From positions 1 through 35,113 of IMG/VR virus record IMGVR_UViG_3300045971_000016: DNA of 35,113 nt. One strand, written 5' to 3'. The notes beneath the pieces are model-generated. The model made no database searches, was not told the DNA's origin, and saw only the letters and a list, made by a program, of their open reading frames with translations. The translations under genes were made by a program, and so were the position numbers. Origin of the DNA: a virus. Below, piece after piece: positions 4,999 to 25,370 of the stretch; the stretch's first letter is position 1, and every line of letters begins with the position of its first letter.

Positions 4999-7686
4999 TT
5001 ATGCTCCTCCAGGCAACATTCTTTGCCCACGTTGTGATACTGCGTAGATGAAACTTGGGTCAGCAGCGATCATAGCCTGGAATGATTTGGCATCTACTGC
5101 GTTTATGTTGTAAGTCACATTAGTCGCTGCACTACCATTGCTTGGACCAACCCTTGCTGGACCTTGCACTAACTCAGGACGAACTTCACCTACTACACCT
5201 ACTTGGCCTGCAGGAATGTCACCACCTGATGCGTGGAATAAACTTCCAATCTGACCCCAAATACTTCCGCCTCCACCGCCACTACCTGATGTAATGTTGG
5301 CAAATAGACGTTGCACATCTGACTTCATAAGAGCAACAACCATATCTTGTAATAGGCTGTTCCAGTTTACTTTACCAGTGCGGACCATTTGTTCAAATAC
5401 TGACTCGAAACTCTTCTCGAATGTGTTAAACATTTCTGATGCACGAGTTGCTTCGTTAGATGCGTTGTCAGCAAAGTCCTTCCACGCCTTAGTCCAACCA
5501 GTATCAAACTGACGTGACTTATCAATCAAGTCTTGTGTTGCTTGTTTTGCAGGTTCCCAATCTGCTGTGATGGTAGCCTTCATTGGTGCAATTTCTTCGT
5601 CTGTAAGTTTGCGACCTAACTGTGCTTCCTTGATCTTAATAAGTCCATCAAGTTGAGCATTAACTTGCTTCTTGATGTTGTTTAACTTCTTCTCGTCGTT
5701 AGTCATTGTTAGTTCGTCCATCGCCAGTCTTATGTCGTTGACTTCCTTAGATACCTTCAACTGATCTTCCATAATGTAGCGACGTGCTTTTTCACTATTC
5801 TCTGCACCAACTAATTCACCCTTCAACTTAGCCATCTCTGATGTTTGGTCAATGATGAGTTGTTTTTGTTTTGTTAACTCTGCTATCTGAGTAGAGTTCT
5901 TACCCTTCTCACGCGAGTTTGCTGCCTCAACTTGTAGGCGTTTAATTTCACCTTCAATGCGAAGCACTTCTGTTTTCTTCTTAACGTCTGTGTCAAACTC
6001 TTGTAACTTAGCAGCACGAACTTCATCGCTTGCACTAACTAAACTAAGTTCAAGTTTTAATCTCTCAGCAGCAAGAGTATTGTTTTGCTGCATCTGTGCT
6101 GTCTGATTTCTAATGCTTTGTGCGGCCGCAGCACTTGGGTTAAGATCGTGTTCGCCTGGGTTAAGAACAGTAGTCTTTGGCTTACCTGTTTCACCCTTCA
6201 ATGATGCTTCCAATTTCTTTTGCATCTCTTGCTGATCTTTAATCATCTTATCAGTCATCTCTTTAGTCTTGGCTTCTGCTTCGCCTGCTGTAGAGTCTGT
6301 AATGCCAAAGAAGTCGCTGATAAAGTTTGCTCCAGAGTGATCTGATTTATCACCACCCCAAATACCGTGCTTCTCACCAAATGTTGCTTGGTAGACTGCC
6401 CATAGTGAACCTGCCGCTGCGATGAATGCCCCGATTGGGCCTACTGCCGCTACTACTGCGGTTCTTACACCAAGCATTGCACCAGCAAATCCTGTAGCGG
6501 CGACTGATGCACCACCCATAACAGGGACTGACGCGGCGGTAATGCCTGTTGCCACGCCTGTTGCTTCTGCTAATGCACCCTTAGCAACTACTAAACGCCA
6601 GGTTGTTCTTTCCAATGTAGCAGTAGCAATAGATGCTTCTGCTTCTGTGGTTGCGTATGTTAAGTTGGCTCTTGCTTCAGCGACCGATGCTTCATAACTT
6701 GCTACCTTAGCAGTCAACGCCCGCATTTTAACCGCAGCATTTTCCATAACTGCGGCGGAGTTAACCTCTAACGAACCCGCTTCAAGTTTAGCACCTGCTG
6801 ATCCTAACCCAAACGCACCCGCTAATCCAACAACCGCATCCTTGATAGAGTTGATTGCGACTAATGTTCCAGCACCAGCAAACAATGCCATAATAGCAAG
6901 TAAGCCCATTGCTGTGCGTTTTGCACCGTCTGTCCCTTCAATGAATGGTTGTATCCACTCAAGAGCAGGTTTAAGCAATAGTAGGAACTCGTTCCTTACC
7001 AGTTGAGTCTTTGCAGCAAGTTCGTCTAAGATAATTTTAGCAGACTCTGTTGCGGTTGCTGCTTCCTTTTGTGAACCAGCAAACCTATCAATGTTACCTG
7101 CTAAGTCTCCCCAGTCAGTCATCTTTGCTGCTTTGCCCATTAACTCTGATGCAAGTTGAGCACGGCGAGCAGGATCTTCCATTGCTGCTAATGAGTGAGC
7201 AATTTTACTGAATGCTTCGTCAGGTGACATCTTGCGTAAGTCGTTCATAGATATACCAAGCCTGCTAAACGAATCACGAAGTGTTGTATTGCCATCACTT
7301 GCATCTTGTGCAGCAACGTTCATCTTCTGAATCATACCAGCAACGTCTTGTGCTGATTTACCAGCCAAAGCACCTGCTAATTGTAACTCCATCATTGACT
7401 GAGTGGTGATACCGATCGAGTTGCCCAACTCAACCATCATAGCACCACCTTCCATTGTTGACTTAAGAAATTCTAATAAGCCAATGCCAACTATAGCAGC
7501 ACCAAGACTTTCCATCTTGGATTTAACTTGCTCTGCTGCCTTTGCTAAATTCTCAAACATTTCTTTATTGTGTTTGAGTCCAGCATCAACCTTCTGCGAG
7601 AAATCTACAGCCTTTTTCTGTGCTGCATCTAACTTGCCTGTGTATTGTGAGTCGTCTAAGACCAGTGCTACGCCAATGTCTGCCAT
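4999..7686 (-). CDS. Tape measure protein
   Basis: An 895-residue protein, the longest in the head-tail block, that sets tail length and is thought to pass into the cell envelope during DNA ejection. The N-terminus (about 1-230) is helical, with alternating hydrophobic and charged residues (AQKKAVDFSQKVDAGLK). Two hydrophobic stretches lie at about 258-280 and 390-435. A Lys/Glu/Gln-rich coiled coil spans about 470-720. The C-terminus contains SGGDIPAGQVGVVGE, a sequence type common at the end of lambda gpH-like tape measures. AAAGGA precedes the ATG. At the usual ratio of about 0.15 nm per residue the tail would be roughly 130 nm (inference). Confidence 0.93.
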   Translation of the reverse strand: MADIGVALVLDDSQYTGKLDAAQKKAVDFSQKVDAGLKHNKEMFENLAKAAEQVKSKMESLGAAIVGIGLLEFLKSTMEGGAMMVELGNSIGITTQSMMELQLAGALAGKSAQDVAGMIQKMNVAAQDASDGNTTLRDSFSRLGISMNDLRKMSPDEAFSKIAHSLAAMEDPARRAQLASELMGKAAKMTDWGDLAGNIDRFAGSQKEAATATESAKIILDELAAKTQLVRNEFLLLLKPALEWIQPFIEGTDGAKRTAMGLLAIMALFAGAGTLVAINSIKDAVVGLAGAFGLGSAGAKLEAGSLEVNSAAVMENAAVKMRALTAKVASYEASVAEARANLTYATTEAEASIATATLERTTWRLVVAKGALAEATGVATGITAASVPVMGGASVAATGFAGAMLGVRTAVVAAVGPIGAFIAAAGSLWAVYQATFGEKHGIWGGDKSDHSGANFISDFFGITDSTAGEAEAKTKEMTDKMIKDQQEMQKKLEASLKGETGKPKTTVLNPGEHDLNPSAAAAQSIRNQTAQMQQNNTLAAERLKLELSLVSASDEVRAAKLQEFDTDVKKKTEVLRIEGEIKRLQVEAANSREKGKNSTQIAELTKQKQLIIDQTSEMAKLKGELVGAENSEKARRYIMEDQLKVSKEVNDIRLAMDELTMTNDEKKLNNIKKQVNAQLDGLIKIKEAQLGRKLTDEEIAPMKATITADWEPAKQATQDLIDKSRQFDTGWTKAWKDFADNASNEATRASEMFNTFEKSFESVFEQMVRTGKVNWNSLLQDMVVALMKSDVQRLFANITSGSGGGGGSIWGQIGSLFHASGGDIPAGQVGVVGEVRPELVQGPARVGPSNGSAATNVTYNINAVDAKSFQAMIAADPSFIYAVSQRGQRMLPGGA

Positions 7687-10414: not shown

Positions 10415-11434
10415 TTACGCAATGTTGATTGCTAAACCACGAGCCTTGCTACCAACGCCAGAACCAAGTAAACCTGTTCCTGTCAATGAGTAGAATGCTG
10501 GGTTAGGCATTTCACGTAACTTCATAGTTAAGCCTGCAACCATAACCGTGTAAAGTGCTTGAGGACCAAATGCACCACCAACCTTCACTGCGGCAGCAGA
10601 TCCACCAAGAGTAGCACGACTGTCGCTCGACAAGAATGTCGTGAACTTGATCGTTGCACCATTGAAGTTGCGGATCATACCAGTTGTCTGCAATTCGTTA
10701 CCTGCTGCTGACAATGCACCAACGCCCATTGCACCCGATGCACCAACTGAAGCGACGTTAGTCAACTCAGCAAGCAAACGGCTTTCTTCCACTGGGGAAA
10801 GAACGATCAATGGAGCACCTGAGTTACGAGACAGACGCCATTTCTTGATTACCAAGTTAATGAGGCCAACCACTGTGTTAGCGGAAGTTGCTTCGTGACC
10901 AGTTAGCGTTGCACCAGCGGCTGCTAATTCAACAGCACCGATTTCTTTAACGCGGTCAAAACCGTCACCGTAGTTAACGGTAACTGAACCAACTGTGTTA
11001 CCAACAGTATAGTTCGTGTCGCCAGTCGTAGCCTTGAAGCCTTGGAAAGCCTTCAATACACGTTGGTCAACCTTCTCAGCATAAGCCTTAGCCATATCTG
11101 AACCTAAGCCAGCAGCAAAGTCGAAACTCGTAACTTCATCATAGAATGAAGAGAACGTAGTTTGTGCCAAGCAAGGCGTAGCAGTAATAGATGCGGAATC
11201 CATAACTGGGTTTTGTGATAACAAAGTCATACCGTCGCCAGTAGAGTCATCATAGTCACCGAAACTTACAGGAGCAAGTTGTGGGACGCGGAAAGTAACA
11301 CCTTGTTGAGGCGTTACGATGTTGGTATCTTGAACGATACCTAAATTTTCGTGCAATACTTCGATTGCGAAGTTGGCAATAGTTTTTTCAAACGCACTTG
11401 CTTCTCCATTAGAACCACCGATTACATAAGACAT
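10415..11434 (-). CDS. Major capsid protein
   Basis: A 339-residue protein after portal and scaffold genes and before connector genes, the standard place of an HK97-fold capsid subunit. The N-terminus (FEKTIANFAIEVLHENLGIV) is a helical arm, followed by VTFRVPQLAPVSFGDYDDSTGDG, which resembles the extended loop region. FSSFYDEVTSFDFAAGLGSDM, a long spine helix and a Gly/Ala-rich A-domain follow. AAAGGAG lies 8 bases before the ATG, among the strongest sites in the block. Assignment combines order, size and composition. No protease gene is nearby, so maturation cleavage is not indicated. Confidence 0.85.
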   Translation of the reverse strand: MSYVIGGSNGEASAFEKTIANFAIEVLHENLGIVQDTNIVTPQQGVTFRVPQLAPVSFGDYDDSTGDGMTLLSQNPVMDSASITATPCLAQTTFSSFYDEVTSFDFAAGLGSDMAKAYAEKVDQRVLKAFQGFKATTGDTNYTVGNTVGSVTVNYGDGFDRVKEIGAVELAAAGATLTGHEATSANTVVGLINLVIKKWRLSRNSGAPLIVLSPVEESRLLAELTNVASVGASGAMGVGALSAAGNELQTTGMIRNFNGATIKFTTFLSSDSRATLGGSAAAVKVGGAFGPQALYTVMVAGLTMKLREMPNPAFYSLTGTGLLGSGVGSKARGLAINIA

Positions 11435-11466: not shown

Positions 11467-12219
11467 TTACCCAAGAGTCCGTCTAACTACACTAACGCCG
11501 ATCCCTTTCGATCCTTTGGCACCGTGCCCGTTTGCTGTCTTCCACGCTTTCCAGCCTTCTGGATCTGTGGCAGCATCGGGCATATCGCCACCTGGAGCAG
11601 TGCTGCTGAACCCAAACTTTGTTCCTGTTCCGGTTCGAGGTTGTTCAACCGCTAATTTAGGACGACTCTTTAATATCTCTTGTGCAAGTTTGTCCAGTGT
11701 ATAAGCATCACCATTATTGTCAAGTTTAACACTTCCATCCTTGCCCTTCACGTAGAAACTACCATCAGTATCAAATGCGATCTGTTGCTCGAATAAATTT
11801 GATGCTAAGTCCAGGTATTGCGGATCGAAACCCGATTTAACTGCCGCATCTTTTATCTGGCTCTGAAGTGATGTCTTACGAACAATCGTATCCTTCTCTT
11901 CAAGTTTAGAGTTTAACGCCTGAATCATCTGACGTAATTCTGCCATCTCGCTATTTGCTTTGTTGCTGGTTGCTTCTTTCTTTGGTTGTTCGTTACCACC
12001 GTTTTGTCCTGTTGACTGTGCTTTAAGCAATGTTTCAACAAACGAAGCAGCATCTCGAGTGCTACCAAATTGTTGACCTGTTACTTTCGCTAATACATCA
12101 AGAACTTCTTTTTGCCCTGCCTTACGAACTGCTCCGAGATTGGGCGTTTGCTGACCTTCACCATTATTGGTTGTGTCTGCTGCTTGGTTATCGGAACCAC
12201 CGGTGTTTTCATCTGACAT
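11467..12219 (-). CDS. Scaffolding protein
   Basis: A 250-residue acidic protein between portal and major capsid genes. The first 75 residues are disordered and rich in Asn, Gly, Gln and Thr. A coiled coil at about 88-125 (SEMAELRQMIQALNSKLEEK) is followed by a helical region and a basic C-terminal tail (GSKGIGVSVVRRTLG), the layout of internal scaffolds whose charged tail docks on capsid subunits. AAAGGAG precedes the ATG. An ATAAATAAC element and a small GGGG/CCCC hairpin lie in its leader. Confidence 0.8.
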   Translation of the reverse strand: MSDENTGGSDNQAADTTNNGEGQQTPNLGAVRKAGQKEVLDVLAKVTGQQFGSTRDAASFVETLLKAQSTGQNGGNEQPKKEATSNKANSEMAELRQMIQALNSKLEEKDTIVRKTSLQSQIKDAAVKSGFDPQYLDLASNLFEQQIAFDTDGSFYVKGKDGSVKLDNNGDAYTLDKLAQEILKSRPKLAVEQPRTGTGTKFGFSSTAPGGDMPDAATDPEGWKAWKTANGHGAKGSKGIGVSVVRRTLG

Positions 12220-12272: not shown

Positions 12273-13823
12273 TTACAGGGAACCAGTAACTGCCTTATTC
12301 ATATTGTTAGTCTGTGCATAGGTTGCATTCACTTGAACGGCATCAGAACTCATCGCACCTGACATTGGTTGTTTGGAATCACCCTCACTACCATCGTCAT
12401 TATCGTTTATTTCATCGTCTGCTGGAGCGACATCATTGACCGCTAACTTTGCTGCACCAACTAACTCTAAGTATTTTGTAAGCATATCAGGTGGAGCAAT
12501 AAGTCTAATAACTTCTTGGTCGATGATACCTTGGATGACAGGATTCATTGACAATGCTTTTGCTTGTTGAAGCAATGCTAACTTGAATTGTGTATCACGT
12601 GCTTCATAGTCGCTATTGTATTCAACATCACCACACCACTCTATGCCCATCATATAGCATACGAGAGTAAGAATGTTTTGCTCAACCTTCTCTAATGCTC
12701 TTGCTCGCGTTTGGGCTTTCTTGTGTAGAGATTTGCGTTCTTCAACGATGCTGATTCCGCTCTGGACTTGTTCAGCAACTGCACGAGTGCCTCCTCTACC
12801 CGTGTATCCATCGAAGGAGGTAATGAGCGAGGCTTGTTGTTCACGGATTTGCTGAACATCCATAACTGGAATAGCGTGAACTTCCATACAGTCTTTAGCA
12901 CCGTGAACGATACCGCCACCGCCAGCAGGAACTTTAATACCACTATCCACACGGATAATAGGCTTGCTGAAACGAATTGAGTCATATGCTTCTGCCTCTA
13001 AGCGTAACCATTCGCGTTGCATATCTGCCACGTCGGTAAGATCACTGATTCCGATAATGTTGTTTTGAATGTCCTTAACAGGCATAACTTGCACTGCTGG
13101 GATTGGATAGTCTGCTGGGAACTCATACACTTCTTCTGGTTCAACAGTAGCAACTGATGCAGTTCCACCTACAGTAGGCACAACGTATAATGTTGCAGTA
13201 GTAGGAATTGTTGGGATAGTTTCACCTTCATCTGTGACTCCACCAACTGTTCCACGCTCCCAAACTTTAATACGCTTGCATTGATCATCTTGATACTCTA
13301 CTACCTTAAGGTAGGTTAAAGTGGAGATGCCATCTTCGTTAAACACCTTCCAGTCTAATACGTGCTGAGCAGGTATAAGAGTAAGGTAAGGACGGTTGTT
13401 AACATTTACTTCCTCAGGTAGATCAACAAATACCCAAGCCCATCCTTCAACTGCCGCAACAGTTGCGGTATGTTCCATAAAGTCTGAGAACTCGTTGTCT
13501 TGTAAGTCTGCGTTTTCAAGGAAGTCTTCAAACCAAGGTGGTGCAGCAAGTGATTGCCCGTTTTGAGTAACGAATGCTAATTCACGATTTGGCTTTTGGT
13601 CAAAGATAATGTCAATGAGTTCTGTGATCATTGACTTGCAGATTGGGAGTGATGCTACATTGTTTAGTTTGTCTTGGTAAAGTGCTGGGCTTTCGCTTGG
13701 CTTCTTTAACAATACAATCCGCTTAAATTGTGTGCCACCTTCATATGCATTACGCATTAGATTGAGTTGGTTCATAATAGTCGCCATTAGCGGACTTGGC
13801 TTTAATAGGTCGTTGACGATCAT
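12273..13823 (-). CDS. Portal protein
   Basis: A 516-residue protein between TerL and scaffold genes, forming the dodecameric DNA gate at one capsid vertex. The start (MRNAYEGGTQFKRIVLLKKP at about 23-42) and LNNVASLPICKSMITELIDIIF match the layout of SPP1/DUF4055-type portals, with an acidic mid-domain and a long helix at about 330-400. The C-terminal 70 residues are disordered and acidic (NDVAPADDEINDNDDGSEGD). AAGGA lies 8 bases before the ATG, and a CATAAATAAAC element lies upstream. Family assignment is from recall of the pattern and is strongly supported by order. Confidence 0.85.
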   Translation of the reverse strand: MIVNDLLKPSPLMATIMNQLNLMRNAYEGGTQFKRIVLLKKPSESPALYQDKLNNVASLPICKSMITELIDIIFDQKPNRELAFVTQNGQSLAAPPWFEDFLENADLQDNEFSDFMEHTATVAAVEGWAWVFVDLPEEVNVNNRPYLTLIPAQHVLDWKVFNEDGISTLTYLKVVEYQDDQCKRIKVWERGTVGGVTDEGETIPTIPTTATLYVVPTVGGTASVATVEPEEVYEFPADYPIPAVQVMPVKDIQNNIIGISDLTDVADMQREWLRLEAEAYDSIRFSKPIIRVDSGIKVPAGGGGIVHGAKDCMEVHAIPVMDVQQIREQQASLITSFDGYTGRGGTRAVAEQVQSGISIVEERKSLHKKAQTRARALEKVEQNILTLVCYMMGIEWCGDVEYNSDYEARDTQFKLALLQQAKALSMNPVIQGIIDQEVIRLIAPPDMLTKYLELVGAAKLAVNDVAPADDEINDNDDGSEGDSKQPMSGAMSSDAVQVNATYAQTNNMNKAVTGSL

Positions 13824-13864: not shown

Positions 13865-15307
13865 TTAGACCCAATACTCATCTTCAGGTTGCACTTGACT
13901 CATCATCTCTTCAACGATAGATTGTGCGGTTGGTAGACCAGTTTTAGTATCATACTCGTAATTGTCAATGTATTCTTGTCCAGGCATCTTATAGTGCCTA
14001 CTATCGCTATCAATATACATTGACTGCTCTTGTTGTTCGTGCATCATTGGGAACAGATAATGAATGCCGTAACGCAAACAGTCACCTAAGCCGTCGATGT
14101 GCATAAACTTTGCCTCTTTATACTTCACTAATGCTTTGCGAGCACCATCTTCATAGTGATAGGTCTCAATAGCATCTATAAGTTTTTGCTCTCCATAAGG
14201 AACAGACAATCTTCCTTGTGCTATAAAGGCATTGGAACTGTTGTCTGAGTCGCTGATGAGTGGATTGGACTTTGCATTGTTGATGATACGGAATCCGTAA
14301 CTCTCAAGTAATGTTCTGTCTGTAATACCAAACGCCGATGTAGTATCGCGGTTAAGTTGAGAACCTGATACGTCCATAATAGAATTGATTTTACGTTTAG
14401 AGAAATCTTTGCGGATGATTTGTGCTAACTGTTCTGTTGAGCAATCCTGTATGGCATAACTCTTGAGAACTTCAATCTTACCTTGCTTGGTTCGTATGTC
14501 ACCAATAACTTGAGCAACAATTGCCGTCATACACTTCTTGTTAAAGTCGTGGAAGGAATAGAGATCACGTTTGCGGTCAAGTATATCTAACTTGATGTAA
14601 TCCTTTTTCCAGGTGTAGTAGAACTGATCCTCAACTGATCCCCAATCGCACTCTAAGTCCTTCTTAAACTTGAGTGGTGATAACAAATACTTTTGTTCGT
14701 CGATCCACTTCTTAGATTGCACACGCATCTGTTTATAGTTCTTGTGTATAACTACCCAGCGATCAGGATTGAGTGCTGCAACTTCGTAGATACTGTGAAA
14801 TGCATTCTTACCCTCTGGTGTAGAGATAAGGATCATTCGTCCTTGAGAGTCTGCTTCTCCAGGGACAGGGCGAATTCGGTTAGACAACTCTTGTAGAGAT
14901 TCCTCACTAAATTCGGCTGCTTCATCAGCCATAATAAGACCTGCGTTAATTCCCTTGAGTCCAGTTTCTGCAGAGACACAATGGATTCTGATACCAGATC
15001 TAAACGTGATGATCTTCTTCGAGTTGTTGATGTCTTTTTCATCTTCTAATCCCCAATCCTCTATACAGGCTTTCTTTAGTGGTGCCCAAATGATACGCTC
15101 AAGCATTGGGTAGGTTGGTGCAACATACAGTATGTCACGACCCTTATGCATTGCTGGTGATGTTGCTGCGATAGGCAATAGTAAACAAGCAAGGAAACTC
15201 TTTCCAGAGCCAACAGGTAGGACTGCAATCACGTTTTTATCCGTGTTATACATTGCATCCCAAACTTCTGTTTGAGCACCAAATAGAGTTATGTTCTTGC
15301 TAATCAA
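13865..15307 (-). CDS. terL: Terminase large subunit
   Basis: A 480-residue DNA packaging motor. The ATPase domain has Walker A VLPVGSGKS (residues 29-37) and Walker B LIMADEAAE (about 129-137). The C-terminal RNase H-like nuclease shows acidic candidates in FHDFNKK (about 252), IMDVSGSQ (about 316) and HIDGLGDCLRYG (about 408-419). The start is a TTG at 15307 that overlaps the stop of the methyltransferase gene; an in-frame stop sits immediately before it, and the first ATG (15253) would cut close to Walker A, so TTG is preferred. GAGG lies 11 bases upstream. Confidence 0.93.
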   Translation of the reverse strand: MISKNITLFGAQTEVWDAMYNTDKNVIAVLPVGSGKSFLACLLLPIAATSPAMHKGRDILYVAPTYPMLERIIWAPLKKACIEDWGLEDEKDINNSKKIITFRSGIRIHCVSAETGLKGINAGLIMADEAAEFSEESLQELSNRIRPVPGEADSQGRMILISTPEGKNAFHSIYEVAALNPDRWVVIHKNYKQMRVQSKKWIDEQKYLLSPLKFKKDLECDWGSVEDQFYYTWKKDYIKLDILDRKRDLYSFHDFNKKCMTAIVAQVIGDIRTKQGKIEVLKSYAIQDCSTEQLAQIIRKDFSKRKINSIMDVSGSQLNRDTTSAFGITDRTLLESYGFRIINNAKSNPLISDSDNSSNAFIAQGRLSVPYGEQKLIDAIETYHYEDGARKALVKYKEAKFMHIDGLGDCLRYGIHYLFPMMHEQQEQSMYIDSDSRHYKMPGQEYIDNYEYDTKTGLPTAQSIVEEMMSQVQPEDEYWV

Positions 15308-18351: not shown

Positions 18352-18699
18352 CTACCTTTCAGGGTCAGTTTGCTGTATTGGCATTGGTTTGGGTCTGTAT
18401 GGTGGCGGTGTTGGAGGCACATAGGGTTGCTGGTAAGGAGGTTGATCCTGAAACGATCCCTTAATACGCTCTTGGCTCTTTGCCCAGGATGTTACCCCAC
18501 AAATTGCACCCATCGCAATGTGGTAAAGTCCACCACTTTGCAGTGTCAACGAAACCCAAGCCTGATACGTTGAATGAGTATAGATTGAATACCAACCAAG
18601 CAGTATTGGGAAGATAATGAAGTCAAAGATGCATACGACAAGGTATTGCATTGCCATCAAACTTCGCCAATTGTCTTTCATCCATTTAGAAGTATTCAC
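18352..18699 (-). CDS. Holin-like membrane protein
   Basis: Up to 115 residues. Two or three hydrophobic segments at about 16-40 (YLVVCIFDFIIFPILLGW) and 50-72 (LQSGGLYHIAMGAICGVTSW) are followed by a Pro/Gln-rich cytoplasmic tail (about 88-108). KDNWRSLMAMQYL before an acidic-phenylalanine transmembrane segment resembles a holin type common in phages of Gram-negative hosts. The start could be GTG at 18699, inside the end of the glycosyltransferase gene, or ATG at 18681, which follows the glycosyltransferase stop directly (TAAATG). Spanin genes two genes upstream support a lysis role. Confidence 0.65.
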   Translation of the reverse strand: MNTSKWMKDNWRSLMAMQYLVVCIFDFIIFPILLGWYSIYTHSTYQAWVSLTLQSGGLYHIAMGAICGVTSWAKSQERIKGSFQDQPPYQQPYVPPTPPPYRPKPMPIQQTDPER

Positions 18700-19474
18700 A
18701 ATTCGTTCGTGGGAAATAGCATTCGTTTAGTTGTAATGGGACTTGCTTCATTGTCTCTAAGATTGATGGCGTATTGGTTCCCATTGCTAACGAGTAAGCA
18801 AAGGTTTGATTCCCTATAAACAAGTCTGCTCCTGCAATGACGTTAGTCATATGTAGGAAGTCTCTTACTGGGTAATACTTGATGTCGCAGTTAGCAAACT
18901 CGCAGTAGTCTTGATGCTCCTTTGGCGAGCCAATAAAGATTCCATTCTCTTTTAAGTTCTTACCCTTAGCAAGTTCTTTGTGCCAGTTGATACCGTCTTT
19001 GAATCCTCCGTGGTAACGTGATGTGCGAGATACAACAATAGGTGCTACTCGTTCTGGATCACACGCCAGCCAAGGACGCATCATACATTCTTTGTCGAAT
19101 GGGAGTTGAAATGTTCTATGGTATGCTTCAATATAATTGCCACGAAATCCACGGAACAGTATTGCTCTAAAGTCGTCTAAGTCTACATCTGGATTTGGGT
19201 CGCCCTTATACCACTTACCTACTTCCTCAATGTATGGTTGACGTTCAAGTAATGGTTTAAGCCACTCGTAGTCTTGCTCTGTATAACGACCAACGTGTGC
19301 TGGATCGATAACTGCATACCCAAATTTAGAAATGCAGACATCAATGTTGTTGATCGCCACTAAGAACTTTCCCCTTGCTACAATGGGGAGGATGGCTAAT
19401 GCATAGATTGTATCGCCAAGTGTTCCACTATGACGATAAGTTATCAATTTAATTTGCCCTGTTTGCTTATCCAT
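18686..19474 (-). CDS. Glycosyltransferase family 9-like protein
   Basis: A 262-residue GT-B-type protein similar in pattern to heptosyltransferase-like enzymes. The N-terminus has HSGTLGDTIYALAILPI, the GD-I loop typical of family 9. The C-terminal half has GIFIGSPKEH, then YYPVRDFLHMTNVIAGADLF and IGNQTFAYSLAMGTNTP, the nucleotide-sugar-binding end. It overlaps the spanin gene at its start and the holin-like gene at its end, so it is embedded in the lysis region. It could modify host lipopolysaccharide to block superinfection, or glycosylate virion parts; the sequence does not decide between these. Confidence 0.75.
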   Translation of the reverse strand: MDKQTGQIKLITYRHSGTLGDTIYALAILPIVARGKFLVAINNIDVCISKFGYAVIDPAHVGRYTEQDYEWLKPLLERQPYIEEVGKWYKGDPNPDVDLDDFRAILFRGFRGNYIEAYHRTFQLPFDKECMMRPWLACDPERVAPIVVSRTSRYHGGFKDGINWHKELAKGKNLKENGIFIGSPKEHQDYCEFANCDIKYYPVRDFLHMTNVIAGADLFIGNQTFAYSLAMGTNTPSILETMKQVPLQLNECYFPRTNCEYF

Positions 19475-19938
19475 TCCTGTAGACCCTTTACTTGCTCGCG
19501 GAGTTGATTACAGGTTGAGTAGTTGGTTGCGACTGTGTGTTCGACTTCAGCAAGACTAACTCCGCTGGGGGTTGCATCAGTTGCTGAGGTGGGGTCGGGA
19601 ATGTCGTTTTTAACGGCTGCGTTGTGCAGGCTGACAAAGTTATTAGGGATAGTGCAAGCAGCATTTTCTGCAGGCGTGATGTATTTGTCGACGTATTGAA
19701 CAATTGTTTCTCCTTTAAGTTGAACTGTTTTTACGCGATCTACGTATTGAGTAACTACTTGGGTTGTGACTTCTGCTTGCTTGGATTGTAGCAGTGTAAT
19801 CTCTTGCTTCATCTTTTCCTTCTCAAGATCCCACTTTGCTTTTTCGCTGGAGTATCCCCAGTAATAAAGACCTCCGATTATGGATAGTGTCAGAAGTGCG
19901 GTAACGGCAAGTTTAAGAAGGGGGCTGAGAGGTGACAT
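19444..19938 (-). CDS. Rz: Inner-membrane spanin, Rz-like
   Basis: A 164-residue protein with one N-terminal transmembrane segment (about 7-29, LKLAVTALLTLSIIGGLYYW) in N-in C-out orientation, then a coiled coil at about 32-75 (SEKAKWDLEKEKMKQEITLL) and a Cys-containing periplasmic domain, as in i-spanins that fuse inner and outer membranes at the end of lysis. The Rz1-like lipoprotein gene lies wholly inside it in another frame. A TATAAATAC element is 26 bases before the ATG, inside the end of the upstream gene. Confidence 0.87.
   Translation of the reverse strand: MSPLSPLLKLAVTALLTLSIIGGLYYWGYSSEKAKWDLEKEKMKQEITLLQSKQAEVTTQVVTQYVDRVKTVQLKGETIVQYVDKYITPAENAACTIPNNFVSLHNAAVKNDIPDPTSATDATPSGVSLAEVEHTVATNYSTCNQLREQVKGLQEWISKQGKLN
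19488..19703 (-). CDS. Rz1: Outer-membrane spanin lipoprotein, Rz1-like (nested in Rz)
   Basis: A 71-residue frame inside the Rz gene. It has a signal peptide with lipobox LSAC (LALSLITLSAC) and a mature part rich in Pro, Gln and Thr (PTPPQQLMQPPAEL), the hallmark of o-spanins. A strong AAAGGAG lies six bases before the TTG at 19703; the first ATG (19664) lacks a site and would leave the signal peptide without a basic or polar n-region. TTG initiation is therefore preferred. Nested Rz1 is typical of proteobacterial phages and implies a Gram-negative host. Confidence 0.87.
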   Translation of the reverse strand: MFNTSTNTSRLQKMLLALSLITLSACTTQPLKTTFPTPPQQLMQPPAELVLLKSNTQSQPTTQPVINSASK

Positions 19939-20125
19939 AGTTTATCTGTAGATCTTCGTTAAAGTATTTATAGTCTTTTAATTTCAAGGGAACAGTTCTT
20001 TTTCGACACTCCATTACTTTACCTATCTTGGGACCAGATTTCTTTATTTCGTAATCTGTATAGACTACACCCTTAACAGTATCAAGAATGTTTTCAATGT
20101 GGTTGACGTATTCAAACTGGTTCAT
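19913..20125 (-). CDS. Hypothetical 70-residue protein
   Basis: Basic protein (KKSGPKIGKVMECRKRTVPLKLKD cut into two basic patches around one Cys), without membrane segment. It starts at an ATGA overlap with the 150-residue gene and runs 26 bases into the Rz gene. Not recognised. Coupling with the spanin genes suggests co-expression at the time of lysis, but nothing shows a lytic activity. Confidence 0.6.
   Translation of the reverse strand: MNQFEYVNHIENILDTVKGVVYTDYEIKKSGPKIGKVMECRKRTVPLKLKDYKYFNEDLQINYVTSQPPS
19964..19972 (-). promoter_or_regulatory. Late-type promoter element TATAAATAC
   Basis: It lies 26 bases before the Rz ATG, within the end of the 70-residue gene. With 8795-8804 it is one of the two best matches to TATAAATA. 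It would allow the spanin-holin genes to be expressed late, independently of the genes upstream. Confidence 0.45.
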
Positions 20126-20574
20126 AAGTCTAAGAATTCCTTTGGTCCGTGGTATGCTACAAGTAGCAAATTTAATTTGGGTATTTGATGATCAAGCATT
20201 TCAGTATCAACTAATGTAGTCAAGGCAAACGCAGTGGTTTTACTAATGTCGTAGTCTAACCGTCTGCGTTTTAAGTTGATGCATTGGATGATGTAACCCA
20301 TATGATCTAGTGAACAATAATCTGTGTCGTATCCAATGATTATGTTTTGTGTGGGCTTGATTTGAAATCGTGTAAGTGATGCCTTTATGTCTCTACGAAT
20401 GGCAACCTCTGGTGTCGCTCCGTGAGCAGAAATGTAGAACTCAAATGTATCTATGTAGTTATAGGTTAAGGGTGATGTATTAAGATTCACCATCAAGTTG
20501 TATGTCCATTGATCAAACACTTTTGGAAATCGCACGTCAGCAATTGGTATTAAGTAGTCTGGGTATAATGACAT
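20122..20574 (-). CDS. Hypothetical 150-residue protein
   Basis: Not recognised. Mixed alpha/beta, Tyr- and Leu-rich, with no membrane segment and no visible lysozyme, amidase or peptidase motif, although its position before the spanin genes would suit an endolysin. GYDTDYCSLDHMGYIIQCIN in the middle contains two Asp, one His and two Cys that could form a site. It begins after the 1-kb non-coding region. GGAG of its ribosome binding site lies in the loop of a small hairpin (20578-20596), and GTTAAATAC lies 23 bases upstream. Confidence 0.65.
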   Translation of the reverse strand: MSLYPDYLIPIADVRFPKVFDQWTYNLMVNLNTSPLTYNYIDTFEFYISAHGATPEVAIRRDIKASLTRFQIKPTQNIIIGYDTDYCSLDHMGYIIQCINLKRRRLDYDISKTTAFALTTLVDTEMLDHQIPKLNLLLVAYHGPKEFLDL

Positions 20575-20577
20575 TGC

Positions 20578-20596
20578 TTGAGATCACTCCTCTCAA
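20578..20596 (-). promoter_or_regulatory. Leader hairpin with Shine-Dalgarno in the loop
   Basis: On the minus strand TTGAGA (20596-20591) pairs with TCTCAA (20583-20578), leaving a 7-base loop that holds GGAG, three bases before the ATG at 20574. The linear distance from GGAG to ATG (about 12) is long, and folding would shorten the effective spacing, so the hairpin may tune translation. Confidence 0.4.
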
Positions 20597-20605
20597 GTAT
20601 TTAAC
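20597..20605 (-). promoter_or_regulatory. Late-type promoter element GTTAAATAC
   Basis: It lies 23 bases before the ATG at 20574, next to the leader hairpin. It is the same nine bases as at 22172-22180. Confidence 0.4.
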
Positions 20606-20654
20606 TGATCTGCGACAATAGTATGATTTAAGAGCGATTTTGCGTAGTCGTGAC

Positions 20655-20720
20655 GATAGCAATCATAAAGCAATTTTGTATTCGTGTATTCAAATACTGT
20701 ATTGGTTTATGATTGCTATC
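20655..20720. repeat. Long inverted repeat
   Basis: gatagcaatcataaa (20655-20669) is perfectly complementary to tttatgattgctatc (20706-20720). The stem extends to 20 bp with one G-G mismatch, leaving a 26-base loop that itself contains gtatt/aatac. It is the longest stem in the window and lies between the unknown 150-residue gene and the rest of the hairpin cluster. Confidence 0.85.
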
Positions 20721-20757
20721 TTGACTTATTAATGTGGTATCTTATTCTGGCATTTAA

Positions 20758-20809
20758 CGAACACCTACGGTGTTCGGATTTAGGTTTACGCTTCGCTACA
20801 ACCTAAATC
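20758..20809. repeat. Two abutting perfect hairpins
   Basis: First: cgaacacc/ggtgttcg, 8 bp with a 3-base loop (20758-20776). Second begins on the next base: gatttaggtt/aacctaaatc, 10 bp with a 13-base loop (20777-20809). The second loop contains cgcttcgcta (20789-20798), the exact complement of the loop of the hairpin at 20925-20951. On the plus strand a T-rich stretch follows, so the pair could also act as a plus-strand terminator. Confidence 0.85.
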
Positions 20810-20896
20810 ACTTTTTCTTTCTTTAGTTCTATTTCACTTGGTATCCGGTATTTGGTTTGCTTTCCAACTCATCAACGAAGTAACTAATAGGTCCAA

Positions 20897-20951
20897 GTAT
20901 TTGCGATGAGCAAATACGCAGGACGCATCAAGTAGCGAAGCGGCTTGATGC
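20897..20951. repeat. Two perfect hairpins, the second with a kissing loop
   Basis: gtatttgc/gcaaatac, 8 bp with a 5-base loop (20897-20917), then gcatcaag/cttgatgc, 8 bp with an 11-base loop (20925-20951). The second loop contains tagcgaagcg (20933-20942), which pairs base for base with the loop at 20789-20798. Confidence 0.85.
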
Positions 20952-21138
20952 ATTGACGATCTAACTACCACAACTCATTGATTGAAATACATACAACACA
21001 CATCAACTTTAATAATGAACTTATCATTGCGTTGCATTTTTCAAATGGTATCAGAAGGCCCATTTTGGAGGACATTTTATTCTTTAAGCAATCGTTTATC
21101 ACTTTCGTGTTTATGACCTTGGCCGCTTATGCCTTGCA

Positions 21139-21246
21139 GTTGTAAATGTTATACCTTGCGATTCTTCTATGTCTTTCGACTGCCTCTTCGTGGCTTCCGC
21201 AATTTAGTGCCTTAGTTACGCCTAACTTAGCACGGCATTTTACAAC
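21139..21246. repeat. Long-range helix enclosing two stem-loops
   Basis: gttgtaaatg (21139-21148) pairs with cattttacaac (21236-21246) with one bulged base. Inside are ttgcg/cgcaa (21156-21160 with 21198-21202) around a gcc/ggc hairpin, and a second hairpin at 21207-21233 with gtgc/gcac and agtta/taact stems. The nested, multi-branched layout suggests an RNA fold. Confidence 0.5.
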
Positions 21247-21421
21247 TATCATCTTTACTAACACATCCTCGTTATTTCGCAAGTGAGTGCTTTCTGACGG
21301 TCGGGACCTTCGTTTATCCCCGGGTTTGAAACTGTTAAAGCAAAGAAACGGACACGGTTTTTGGTAACCTCTGCTGGAGACGCGGGAAACGGTATTTCGC
21401 TTGAGTTGGTTTGCTTGTATA

Positions 21422-21442
21422 GTTATTTATCCCAGTATAACA
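21422..21442 (-). promoter_or_regulatory. Promoter-like element before the structured region
   Basis: On the minus strand TGTTATACT (21442-21434) fits an extended -10 box (TG-N-TATACT), followed by ATAAATAAC (21430-21422), a late-type element. No good -35 box is present. Transcription from here would run into the hairpin-rich region. Confidence 0.4.
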
Positions 21443-21479
21443 TAAAGCGAATATTTATTTTGGAGTAGTTTACTCAAAG

Positions 21480-21506
21480 AAATAGGGAGACGAAGACTCC
21501 CTATTT
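21480..21506 (-). terminator. Strong hairpin downstream of the early block
   Basis: aaatagggag pairs perfectly with ctccctattt (10 bp) around a 7-base loop that reads TCTTCGT on the minus strand. It lies about 120 bases after the stop of the 158-residue gene. The minus strand continues CTTTG, so the T-run is poor, but the stem is strong and may end or stabilise the early transcript. Confidence 0.5.
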
Positions 21507-21563
21507 CAGTGTGCAAAATCAAGCAATCTCACACTTTTTCATTTCTTAGGAGAAATGGTTGCG

Positions 21564-21592
21564 TATTGTGCCAGCGTTGCACCAGCACAATA
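21564..21592. repeat. Inverted repeat after the early block
   Basis: tattgtgc (21564-21571) and gcacaata (21585-21592) form a perfect 8-bp stem with a 13-base loop. On the minus strand it directly follows an ATAAATAAT late-type element (21600-21592). It may be a terminator stem without T-run or part of the structured leader. Confidence 0.5.
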
Positions 21593-21627
21593 TTATTTAT
21601 GCCAATCCTCCTAAATAGACAGTATTT

Positions 21628-22104
21628 TTACCCTTTTCCTTTAAGAATCTCTGCTGCTTTGGCTACCGTTGCTGGGTTAGATTTACGAACAGGATTTGGG
21701 TCAATGCTGTAGATTTGCTTGTCAAAGCCAATGCTTGTTGGAGCATCTTCTTCATTACTGTAATAGTTGGCAATAATGTCAAACATCGCTTCAACTGAAT
21801 CCAGTTGTGGTGTAGACAAGTTCTTGTTTGGTTGAGTCAACTTAGCAGAGCAAATACCACCAATAATGGATGCGTGACTGTTTGGTCCAGACTTACCTTT
21901 TGGGTAAAGGCCAGGACGACGTTTGAACCATTCACGACGCATTTCCTCGTCGTGTGTGCAGAGTTCAGACATATCACAGATTAAACGATACAACCATTTG
22001 TAAATGTATGCTTCGTCGTCTGCAGAGTCAATGTCCCAATACTGGGTGCCTGCTGATGTGTTTTTGGGGGTGATTGCGACTTTTCGCGACTTGATGATTT
22101 TCAT
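21628..22104 (-). CDS. Hypothetical 158-residue early protein
   Basis: Last gene of the early block, with AAAGGAG nine bases before the ATG. Not recognised. The N-terminus is basic (MKIIKSRKVAITPKN); the middle is helical with Cys and His (LICDMSELCTHDEEMRREW); the rest carries RRPGLYPKGKSGPNSHASI, possibly a nucleic-acid-binding loop; the C-terminus is a Lys-rich helix. About 60 bases upstream is GTTAAATAC, so it may be expressed separately from the genes before it. No membrane segment. Confidence 0.7.
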   Translation of the reverse strand: MKIIKSRKVAITPKNTSAGTQYWDIDSADDEAYIYKWLYRLICDMSELCTHDEEMRREWFKRRPGLYPKGKSGPNSHASIIGGICSAKLTQPNKNLSTPQLDSVEAMFDIIANYYSNEEDAPTSIGFDKQIYSIDPNPVRKSNPATVAKAAEILKGKG

Positions 22105-22165
22105 TTGAAATACTCCTTTAGTAACAGTTATCCTCCACTGTCAGGTTAAGCAAGGACCATCCCTG

Positions 22166-22336
22166 CTATATGTATTTAACTGGTGTTGACGAAATCAGCA
22201 CATTAGCAACAAAATTCGACGTCTTTCTCAACTCGTCTTGTTTTGATAGCCATTCAGTAAATCGCTGATTTCGTTCTTCAGCAGTCAGTTCTTTTGATAG
22301 TGACTTTAAGAAGTCATCGTATGCACTATTCCTCAT
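22166..22336 (-). CDS. Small hypothetical protein coupled to the DNA-binding protein gene
   Basis: A 56-residue frame starting MRNSAYDDFLKSLSKELTAE. Its ATG overlaps the stop of the 216-residue gene as ATGA, so it is likely translated by coupling. It is a charged helical protein (EERNQRFTEWLSKQDELRK) ending in a short hydrophobic stretch. Not recognised. It fills a gap that would otherwise be unexplained. Confidence 0.55.
   Translation of the reverse strand: MRNSAYDDFLKSLSKELTAEERNQRFTEWLSKQDELRKTSNFVANVLISSTPVKYI
22172..22180 (-). promoter_or_regulatory. Late-type promoter element GTTAAATAC
   Basis: It lies in the end of the 56-residue gene, 68 bases before the ATG at 22104. It is followed by a GCAGGG/CCTTGC hairpin (with one G-U pair) and by a second hairpin carrying GGAGG in its loop (22124-22141). 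Confidence 0.35.
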
Positions 22337-22983
22337 TTTGGTGTTACGGTAAACACTGTGCGTTGTTTGCAGTTGTCAAAATGGTATCTAATCATATTAT
22401 GACTCTTACCACTAAGTCCGCAATGTGGGCAAACAAGAAGTGGTCTTGCCGCATTACCTGCACGGCGAGCATCACTGATCTTTTGACGAACTTCATCACT
22501 TGCCATTGCGGCTGCAAGTTTTAACCTGTATTCAGATCCTTCAGCGTATTGCTCTTGGCGTCGACGGACTGATTCCTCAGTATTCTTTGCTGCTTTAACA
22601 GACGCTGCACGTTTAGCACGAACCTCGGGTGTGTTTGATGCCTTTTGTGCTGCTGACTTCTTTTCAAAGTATTCAGGTGACGCTAATGTAGCAGCACGTT
22701 TTGCCTTTGACTCAGGTGTAGCAAGAGTGGCAGCACGTTTTGCTCGCACAGTAGGATCAGCAGAAACTTTTTTCATCGCTTCTTTGCGATGCTTAATAGT
22801 CTCAGGATTGGCATTAGCCCTTGCTACTCCAGCACGTCTGCGTTCTTTAGTCTCAGGCCGTGCATTTGTTTCGCGTAATGATTCAATACGCTTCTTGTTT
22901 GCTTCTTCTTTCTTGCGAGCCTTGAAGTAAACCTCAAGTTCTTCAATACTCATTTTTGTGACATCAGGTGTAGGTGTAGACAT
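22333..22983 (-). CDS. DNA-binding protein resembling the tail of homing endonucleases
   Basis: A 216-residue, very basic protein. Residues about 40-150 contain six or so degenerate helical units of 13-17 residues (for example PTVRAKRAATLATPE, SPEYFEKKSAAQKASN), similar to the repeated DNA-contacting modules of phage GIY-YIG and HNH homing endonucleases. The C-terminus has a probable zinc motif C185-x2-C188-x12-H201-x3-C205 (CPHCGLSGKSHNMIRYHFDN), a sequence type I associate with the ends of such endonucleases. No nuclease domain is visible, so it may be a domesticated DNA-binding remnant. GGAAG precedes the ATG, three bases after the AAA+ gene stop. Confidence 0.7.
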   Translation of the reverse strand: MSTPTPDVTKMSIEELEVYFKARKKEEANKKRIESLRETNARPETKERRRAGVARANANPETIKHRKEAMKKVSADPTVRAKRAATLATPESKAKRAATLASPEYFEKKSAAQKASNTPEVRAKRAASVKAAKNTEESVRRRQEQYAEGSEYRLKLAAAMASDEVRQKISDARRAGNAARPLLVCPHCGLSGKSHNMIRYHFDNCKQRTVFTVTPK

Positions 22984-24671: not shown

Positions 24672-25370
24672 ATGTCACGAAAACCACTACCAACCACTTA
24701 CAAGAAGGCTGAAGTAAGATCCATTTACGGAGCCACCACAGAAAAAGTAATCATCACTAACGGGGACATCACGTGGGAGTATGTTGAACAGGCGTGGGCA
24801 GATCGTGAAGTGAAGAAAAGTGATACTGAATGCTGGGATTGGAAAGGATCTTGGCACCGTCAAGGTTACGGATTGTTTCACGTTAGGCGTTCTGGTGACA
24901 AGGCAAAGTCTGGTCAGATGAATATTCAACGATTTGCCAAAGCAAGAGAATTGGGCCGCCCGTTATTGACAAGTGAGCAAGTGTATTCAACGTGCCATAG
25001 CAAGAGTTGCACTAACCCAGCACATTTGAAGATTGGTGACCGTGAGGCAGTGATCAACAATTCACCAGACTTTCCTAAGAGGTCGCAGTATGCTGATGAT
25101 TACATCACGAACAATCTGTCGTTCTTGTTAAACTCAAGTAGGCCAAAAGTAGCCAAAGCGTTAGGTGTGACTGATAATCAGGCAACTCACTTAAAGTTTC
25201 TTGCGAGAAATAAGAAACGTGTCAACGATGCGATTGCTTTGTTACCTGAAAAGTTTAGGAATAAGTTACTTAAACCAGGATGCGATAGTATCCTTGAAGA
25301 AGGTGGCGACGGTAATAACCACGGTGAACAAAGATCCAATGAACCCGATAACACTCTTATATCGGGTTAA
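24672..25370 (+). CDS. Degenerate HNH-fold protein with C-terminal helix-turn-helix-like region
   Basis: The only plus-strand gene, 232 residues, with GAGAGG five bases before the ATG. CWDWKGSWHRQGYGLF (about 55-70) and TCHSKSCTNPAHLKIGD (about 107-123) match the zinc-binding frame of phage HNH_3 endonucleases (C-W-W-G....GYG and C-x4-C-NP-HL). However, the His normally found two residues before the first Cys of the second motif is Ser (VYSTC), and the HRLAYE-type His is replaced in QRFAKA. The nuclease is therefore probably inactive. SRPKVAKALGVTDNQATHLK (about 155-174) looks like a helix-turn-helix. Being divergent from the early promoter suggests a regulator. The last 35 codons overlap the end of the convergent gene. 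Confidence 0.7.
   Translation: MSRKPLPTTYKKAEVRSIYGATTEKVIITNGDITWEYVEQAWADREVKKSDTECWDWKGSWHRQGYGLFHVRRSGDKAKSGQMNIQRFAKARELGRPLLTSEQVYSTCHSKSCTNPAHLKIGDREAVINNSPDFPKRSQYADDYITNNLSFLLNSSRPKVAKALGVTDNQATHLKFLARNKKRVNDAIALLPEKFRNKLLKPGCDSILEEGGDGNNHGEQRSNEPDNTLISG

Follow-up and report, generated by a model that had tools for sequence, protein, structure and literature searches.

Hairpins with complementary loops in a gene-free slot of an uncultivated tailed phage: a possible segment of a late minus-strand RNA

Two perfect hairpins whose loops are complementary to each other lie in a gene-free part of a phage genome, which raises the question of whether they belong to a folded RNA, act in the DNA or are remnants with no present function. 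The window, i.e. the whole stretch of DNA that was analysed, comprises 35,113 bases; it is an entire IMG/VR virus record and possibly a fragment. Judging by family matches, it represents an uncultivated tailed phage. The following genes were recognised by such matches:

4999-7686, minus: tape measure
10415-11434, minus: probable major head protein
11467-12219, minus: scaffold
12273-13823, minus: portal
13865-15307, minus: terminase large subunit
18352-18699, minus: probable holin
19444-19938, minus: Rz-like spanin
22333-22983, minus: homing endonuclease
24672-25370, plus: HNH endonuclease

All recognised genes were located on the minus strand, with the HNH gene as the sole exception, and no tRNA genes were found in the whole window. 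The original prediction placed the hairpins in a region with no gene; no ORF of at least 60 aa was present in the gap at 20575-21627, apart from a 67-aa frame (21509-21712, plus strand) that overlaps the gap edge opposite a longer gene. No open stretch within 20600-21480 exceeded the length expected from shuffles, and a 39-aa ORF running across hairpin 2 (20834-20953, minus strand) gained no support. Every hairpin coordinate in the original prediction proved right when the sequence was rechecked, and the two further perfect hairpins that it mentioned lie at 20758-20776 and 20897-20917. The gap contains the following elements:

20777-20786 with 20800-20809, minus (strand suggested by promoter-like motifs): hairpin 1, perfect 10-bp stem, 13-nt loop
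20925-20932 with 20944-20951, minus: hairpin 2, perfect 8-bp stem, 11-nt loop
20758-20776, minus: hairpin 3, perfect 8-bp stem with a 3-nt loop, immediately next to hairpin 1
20891-20924, minus: hairpin 4, perfect 8-bp stem at 20897-20917, 5-nt loop, adjoining hairpin 2
20650-20725, minus: long imperfect hairpin, an inverted repeat with 33-nt arms

The loop of hairpin 1 reads TACGCTTCGCTAC on the strand as given and GUAGCGAAGCGUA on the minus strand, and that of hairpin 2 reads TAGCGAAGCGG and CCGCUUCGCUA, respectively. The claimed complementarity was confirmed: CGCTTCGCTA (20789-20798) is the exact reverse complement of TAGCGAAGCG (20933-20942), a match of 10 nt, or of 11 nt (20789-20799 and 20932-20942) if the stem base G20932 is included. 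In their stems, by contrast, hairpins 1 and 2 have no sequence in common. The stem of hairpin 4 is lengthened by an outer GTCC/GGAC stem, and the long imperfect hairpin has a perfect 15-bp core (20655-20669/20706-20720, GATAGCAATCATAAA/TTTATGATTGCTATC). The loop 10-mer has no further occurrence anywhere in the window; nor do the stems recur there as hairpins, whereas a repetitive hairpin element would show many copies with a conserved stem.

The gap contained six perfect hairpins with stems of 8 bp or more, compared with a mean of 0.24 and a maximum of 3 in 500 dinucleotide shuffles. The best loop-loop complementarity reached 10 nt, against at most 5 nt in the 500 shuffles, a match beyond chance as expected of kissing loops. 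In 579 kb of phage loci, where hairpins of at least 7 bp were paired within 1 kb, no other pair had loops complementary over at least 7 nt. The hairpins and their loop complementarity are therefore real and not due to chance, as had been argued from the sequence. The claim of a folded RNA was partly supported, and the folding itself found support. The minus strand of 20575-21000 had a folding z-score of −5.4, and its best 150-nt window reached −7.0, compared with a background of −0.66 ± 1.17 in the window. The best windows ranged from about −5 to −7 on the minus strand, and the plus strand also gave values of −3 to −5. Because both strands fold nearly equally well, the fold cannot decide between the RNA and DNA readings. 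The computed duplex of the two loops amounts to −17 kcal/mol, a figure that ignores geometry. Kissing complexes usually comprise about 2-7 bp. A full 10-bp kiss between loops of 11 and 13 nt would be sterically strained and is doubtful, and pairing of the central 6-8 bp is probably more realistic.

The preference of the original prediction for the minus strand was supported by a strand-biased ATAAATA motif and by a conserved leader. ATAAATA was found 11 times on the gene strand of the window and once on the opposite strand (4.3 expected per strand). The bias was the same in most relatives, with 40 versus 2 occurrences summed over nine of them, motif-bearing or not. Many minus-strand ORFs are preceded by ATAAATA or TTAAATA at a distance of 21 to 75 nt, and the sole plus-strand ATAAATA (24647) precedes the plus-strand HNH gene by 25 nt.

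32922, 30386, 22179, 21600, 21458, 21430, 20604, 19971, 18333, 13854, 12269 and 8802, minus: ATAAATA/TTAAATA motifs
21424-21458, minus: two ATAAATA motifs in the gap, starting at 21458 and 21430
20597-20604, minus: promoter-like motif TTAAATAC, just upstream of ORF 20122-20574

The TTAAATA at 20604 lies 30 nt before ORF 20122-20574. As motifs rather than measured start sites, these elements favour a putative minus-strand transcript across the gap. The T4-type late promoter TATAAATA is comparable in that the ATAAATA of the window also lies shortly upstream of many coding-strand ORFs, but the first T is mostly unconserved in the window motif, and no gp55-like sigma factor was noticed. A T4-late-like promoter system would here be found in a phage whose structural genes are otherwise non-T4.

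Directly behind the motif at 21600, a candidate structured leader was identified:

21540-21600, minus: ATAAATA motif and leader RNA candidate, two hairpins with loops UGCAAYG and CCUA
21475-21539, minus: leader hairpins three and four, the fourth (21479-21507) a perfect 11-bp hairpin with no U-tract

The segment at 21540-21600 is homologous to L011:661-720 and L007:4901-4950 in two related phages. The entire element, consisting of the motif, the UGCAAYG-loop hairpin, the CCUA-loop hairpin and hairpins three and four, is present in L011 (661-800) and L007 (4901-5050). The folding z-score of the minus strand at 21450-21599, immediately after the motif, was −7.8. For the first two leader helices, 97% of cells were paired across the three phages and 6 of the 11 pairs were changed on both sides, while sliding the partner as a control lowered pairing to 39-52%; this covariation is suggestive rather than stronger, because it comes from three sequences and the structure was read from those same sequences. 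When a covariance model built from L007 and L011 only was run over 422 kb, its top-ranked match was the site in the window (E about 0.007). A search with a loose DNA pattern of the leader returned mostly chance matches and was abandoned, and the leader candidate had no Rfam match. The segments 21475-21600 (minus), L011:661-800 and L007:4901-5050 may represent a new four-hairpin structured leader RNA common to three related phages.

The flagged hairpins lie downstream of this leader on the minus strand, in a slot whose content varies among relatives:

20605-21474, minus: gene-free slot of about 870 bases between the leader and ORF 20122-20574

The same slot bears genes in L007 (ORF 5039-6064) and L011 (ORFs 819-1079 and 1083-2183), where the order is leader, slot genes, homologue of ORF 20122-20574 and then the spanin gene. 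The slot gene of L007 contains an exact 24-nt palindrome, GACACGAGAACTACTTCTCGTGTC, twice (L007:5233-5301), with related copies further on. In the case of L011:1083-2183, visual inspection of the encoded 366-aa protein showed motifs (YDIECCAPTLL ... HDGW) reminiscent of a polymerase palm, and no family match of known function was obtained. The closest relative by terminase, L005 (90% identity), is like the window across the structural genes and has unrelated sequence at the hairpin region; it lacks the leader as well as the ORFs flanking the gap. It carries a gene-free array of 565 bases (L005:5325-5889) with about six palindromic repeats, AGTTACTTCTTTT / AAAAGAAGTAACT, with CCC/GGG variants. 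A DUF5906 / P4-family primase-helicase gene lies directly upstream of the array, and the spanin gene is situated just downstream, with one small ORF between. The array has the appearance of an origin. G-U pairs, inspected by eye as a marker of the RNA strand in this array, fell on either strand and were discarded as such. This part of the genome thus repeatedly contains gene-free, hairpin-rich DNA, although the sequences are unrelated. The proteins flanking the gap of the window matched no phage records and no viral contigs; their weak homologues were confined to terminase-linked relatives, and extending the search via the 20122 protein family added nothing new.

Homologues of the hairpins were not found in viral_contigs (17-mer search) or in phage records, in searches from which the nearest records may have been excluded, or in the sister phage L005. 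No Rfam family matched at the gathering score over the whole window, and no ROOL, GOLLD or pRNA-type family appeared in 20100-22400 up to E 10; a group I intron, considered on sequence grounds, was discarded for lack of an Rfam match. A 17-mer of hairpin 1 matched two viral_contigs entries, neither of them similar to the hairpin region, and both were treated as chance; the one in L003 falls within overlapping ORFs of a phage that is unrelated. For hairpin 3, the core 17-mer occurred in 53 genome contigs, including several Ignavibacteria, one Bacteroidetes genome and marine archaea; because its flanks there were unrelated, it was not accepted as a repeat family of this phage's host. Separately, one Bacteroidetes genome and Ignavibacteria contain recurrent GAACACCTACGGTGTTC hairpins (L178, L211, L215, L223, L225; Ignavibacteria loci such as L190, L194, L212, L217) with similar flanks and often with CTACAAATATT shortly downstream; these hairpins are apparently a bacterial palindromic repeat family.

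Structured RNAs keep their loops more conserved than their helices, and the repetitive hairpin elements of sponge mitochondria show the opposite pattern of conserved stems and varying loops (PMC2800124). In hairpins 1 and 2 the stems are unrelated and the loops match, which is the pattern of structured RNAs and argues against two copies of one palindromic element, whose stems would be alike. Unrelated stems with matching loops leave two readings that involve selection: pairing of the loops in RNA, or a shared opposite-strand motif that is recognised in DNA. The promoter-like motifs and the leader favour the former, and the arrangement in L005 favours an origin.

Our preferred, still tentative reading, with a probability of roughly 0.4, is that the flagged hairpins are the hairpin segment of a noncoding RNA, or of a long leader, that is transcribed late from the minus strand. 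RNA synthesis would begin at the minus-strand motifs of ATAAATA type (21600, 21458 and 21430) and continue through the structured leader. The transcript would be either a noncoding RNA some 0.8-1 kb long or a very long, structured 5' region belonging to ORF 20122-20574. Such an RNA would fold into a series of strong local hairpins, and the loops of hairpins 1 and 2 would pair, probably through their central 6-8 bases and not all 10. Pairing within one RNA would turn the 175-nt segment into a compact domain; it might also take place between two RNA copies. As to function, an RNA fold with a regulatory or protective role is likeliest, acting in stability, in processing or as a decoy; it would lie immediately upstream of the lysis genes. 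A bolder version, which we regard as quite improbable, is a new late phage noncoding RNA arising from the variable slot that follows a conserved promoter and a structured leader, with loop pairing of up to 10 bp that would yield a compact or self-assembling particle, perhaps a lysis-time decoy or scaffold.

An element of DNA replication, which the original prediction named as an alternative in the form of a cruciform-forming origin, is an unlikely yet credible explanation of the same hairpins. The ssiA and ssiB sites of RSF1010 are two inverted hairpins that carry a common motif on opposite strands and prime the two strands. By analogy, the two oppositely oriented hairpins of the window would expose the loop motif CGCTTCGCTAC, one per strand, and serve as recognition sites for a phage primase or initiator in single-stranded or cruciform DNA. 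The motif is indeed identical on opposite strands, as in an inverted ssi pair, and reaches the 3' loop edge in both hairpins; the gap is AT-richer (38.7% versus 42.5% GC); and 20691-20917 contains the heptamer CAAATAC four times, as many as were seen in 2 of 300 shuffles. The position of the comparable L005 array beside a primase-helicase gene and near the spanin gene points the same way, but that array differs in design, and both the leader and the gap-flanking ORFs are missing from L005. Moreover, no replication gene was recognised adjoining the gap in the window, which is possibly a fragment, classical iterons were absent and the GC skew showed no clear switch.

The slot might also be a decayed one, from which a gene kept by relatives has been lost and in which small palindromes or template-switch inverted duplications have accumulated with no present function; we consider this unlikely yet credible, to the same degree as the replication element. 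It would fit the presence of slot genes in L007 and L011 and their absence from the window, as well as the repeated palindromes of L005 in a similar place and of the L007 slot gene. The longest one-stop minus-strand frame, of 153 codons, is compatible with a weak coding relic; as evidence of a decayed gene it was rejected, for its length was reached in 33 of 500 shuffles and was not significant, and it had no family match. The stems differ and do not recur as hairpins, which argues against copies of one element, and several perfect stems together with an exact loop match would, if unselected, require a recent origin.

That the hairpins merely terminate transcription or serve mRNA-end processing between late transcription units is very unlikely: strong hairpins do stand between the leader and a gene that has a promoter-like motif of its own, and plus-strand hairpin 1 is followed by ACTTTTTCTTTC, but 20100-22200 held one terminator-like site only (shuffle mean 1.3), on the strand opposite the genes, the minus-strand hairpins lack the U-tracts of intrinsic terminators, and the complementary loops are left unexplained.

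If the loops pair in RNA, the locus would encode a phage noncoding RNA with a loop-loop helix longer than usual, in a slot where relatives swap genes. If they act at the DNA level, it would point to an origin element in a phage lineage without a characterised replication system. Under either reading, the slot and the leader are defined well enough to be looked for in more genomes.

Among known systems, kissing loops occur in the ROOL and GOLLD assemblies encoded by phages and prophages (PMC12286853). Together with the phi29 packaging RNA, ROOL and GOLLD resemble the window element in being phage-encoded and gene-free, with many hairpins and complementary loops, whereas the window element has no Rfam match and no conservation and its loop match is longer than usual kisses. 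ROOL and GOLLD are also often found near tRNA genes, unlike the present locus, which has no tRNA island. The likeness to RSF1010 ssiA/ssiB concerns the hairpin arrangement alone, motif sequences aside, and no RepB'-like primase was found next to the site in the window. The repetitive or double hairpin elements of mitochondria likewise consist of adjacent hairpins in intergenic DNA, but their stems are conserved and their loops vary (PMC2800124), while in the window the reverse is seen: the loops match and the stems differ.
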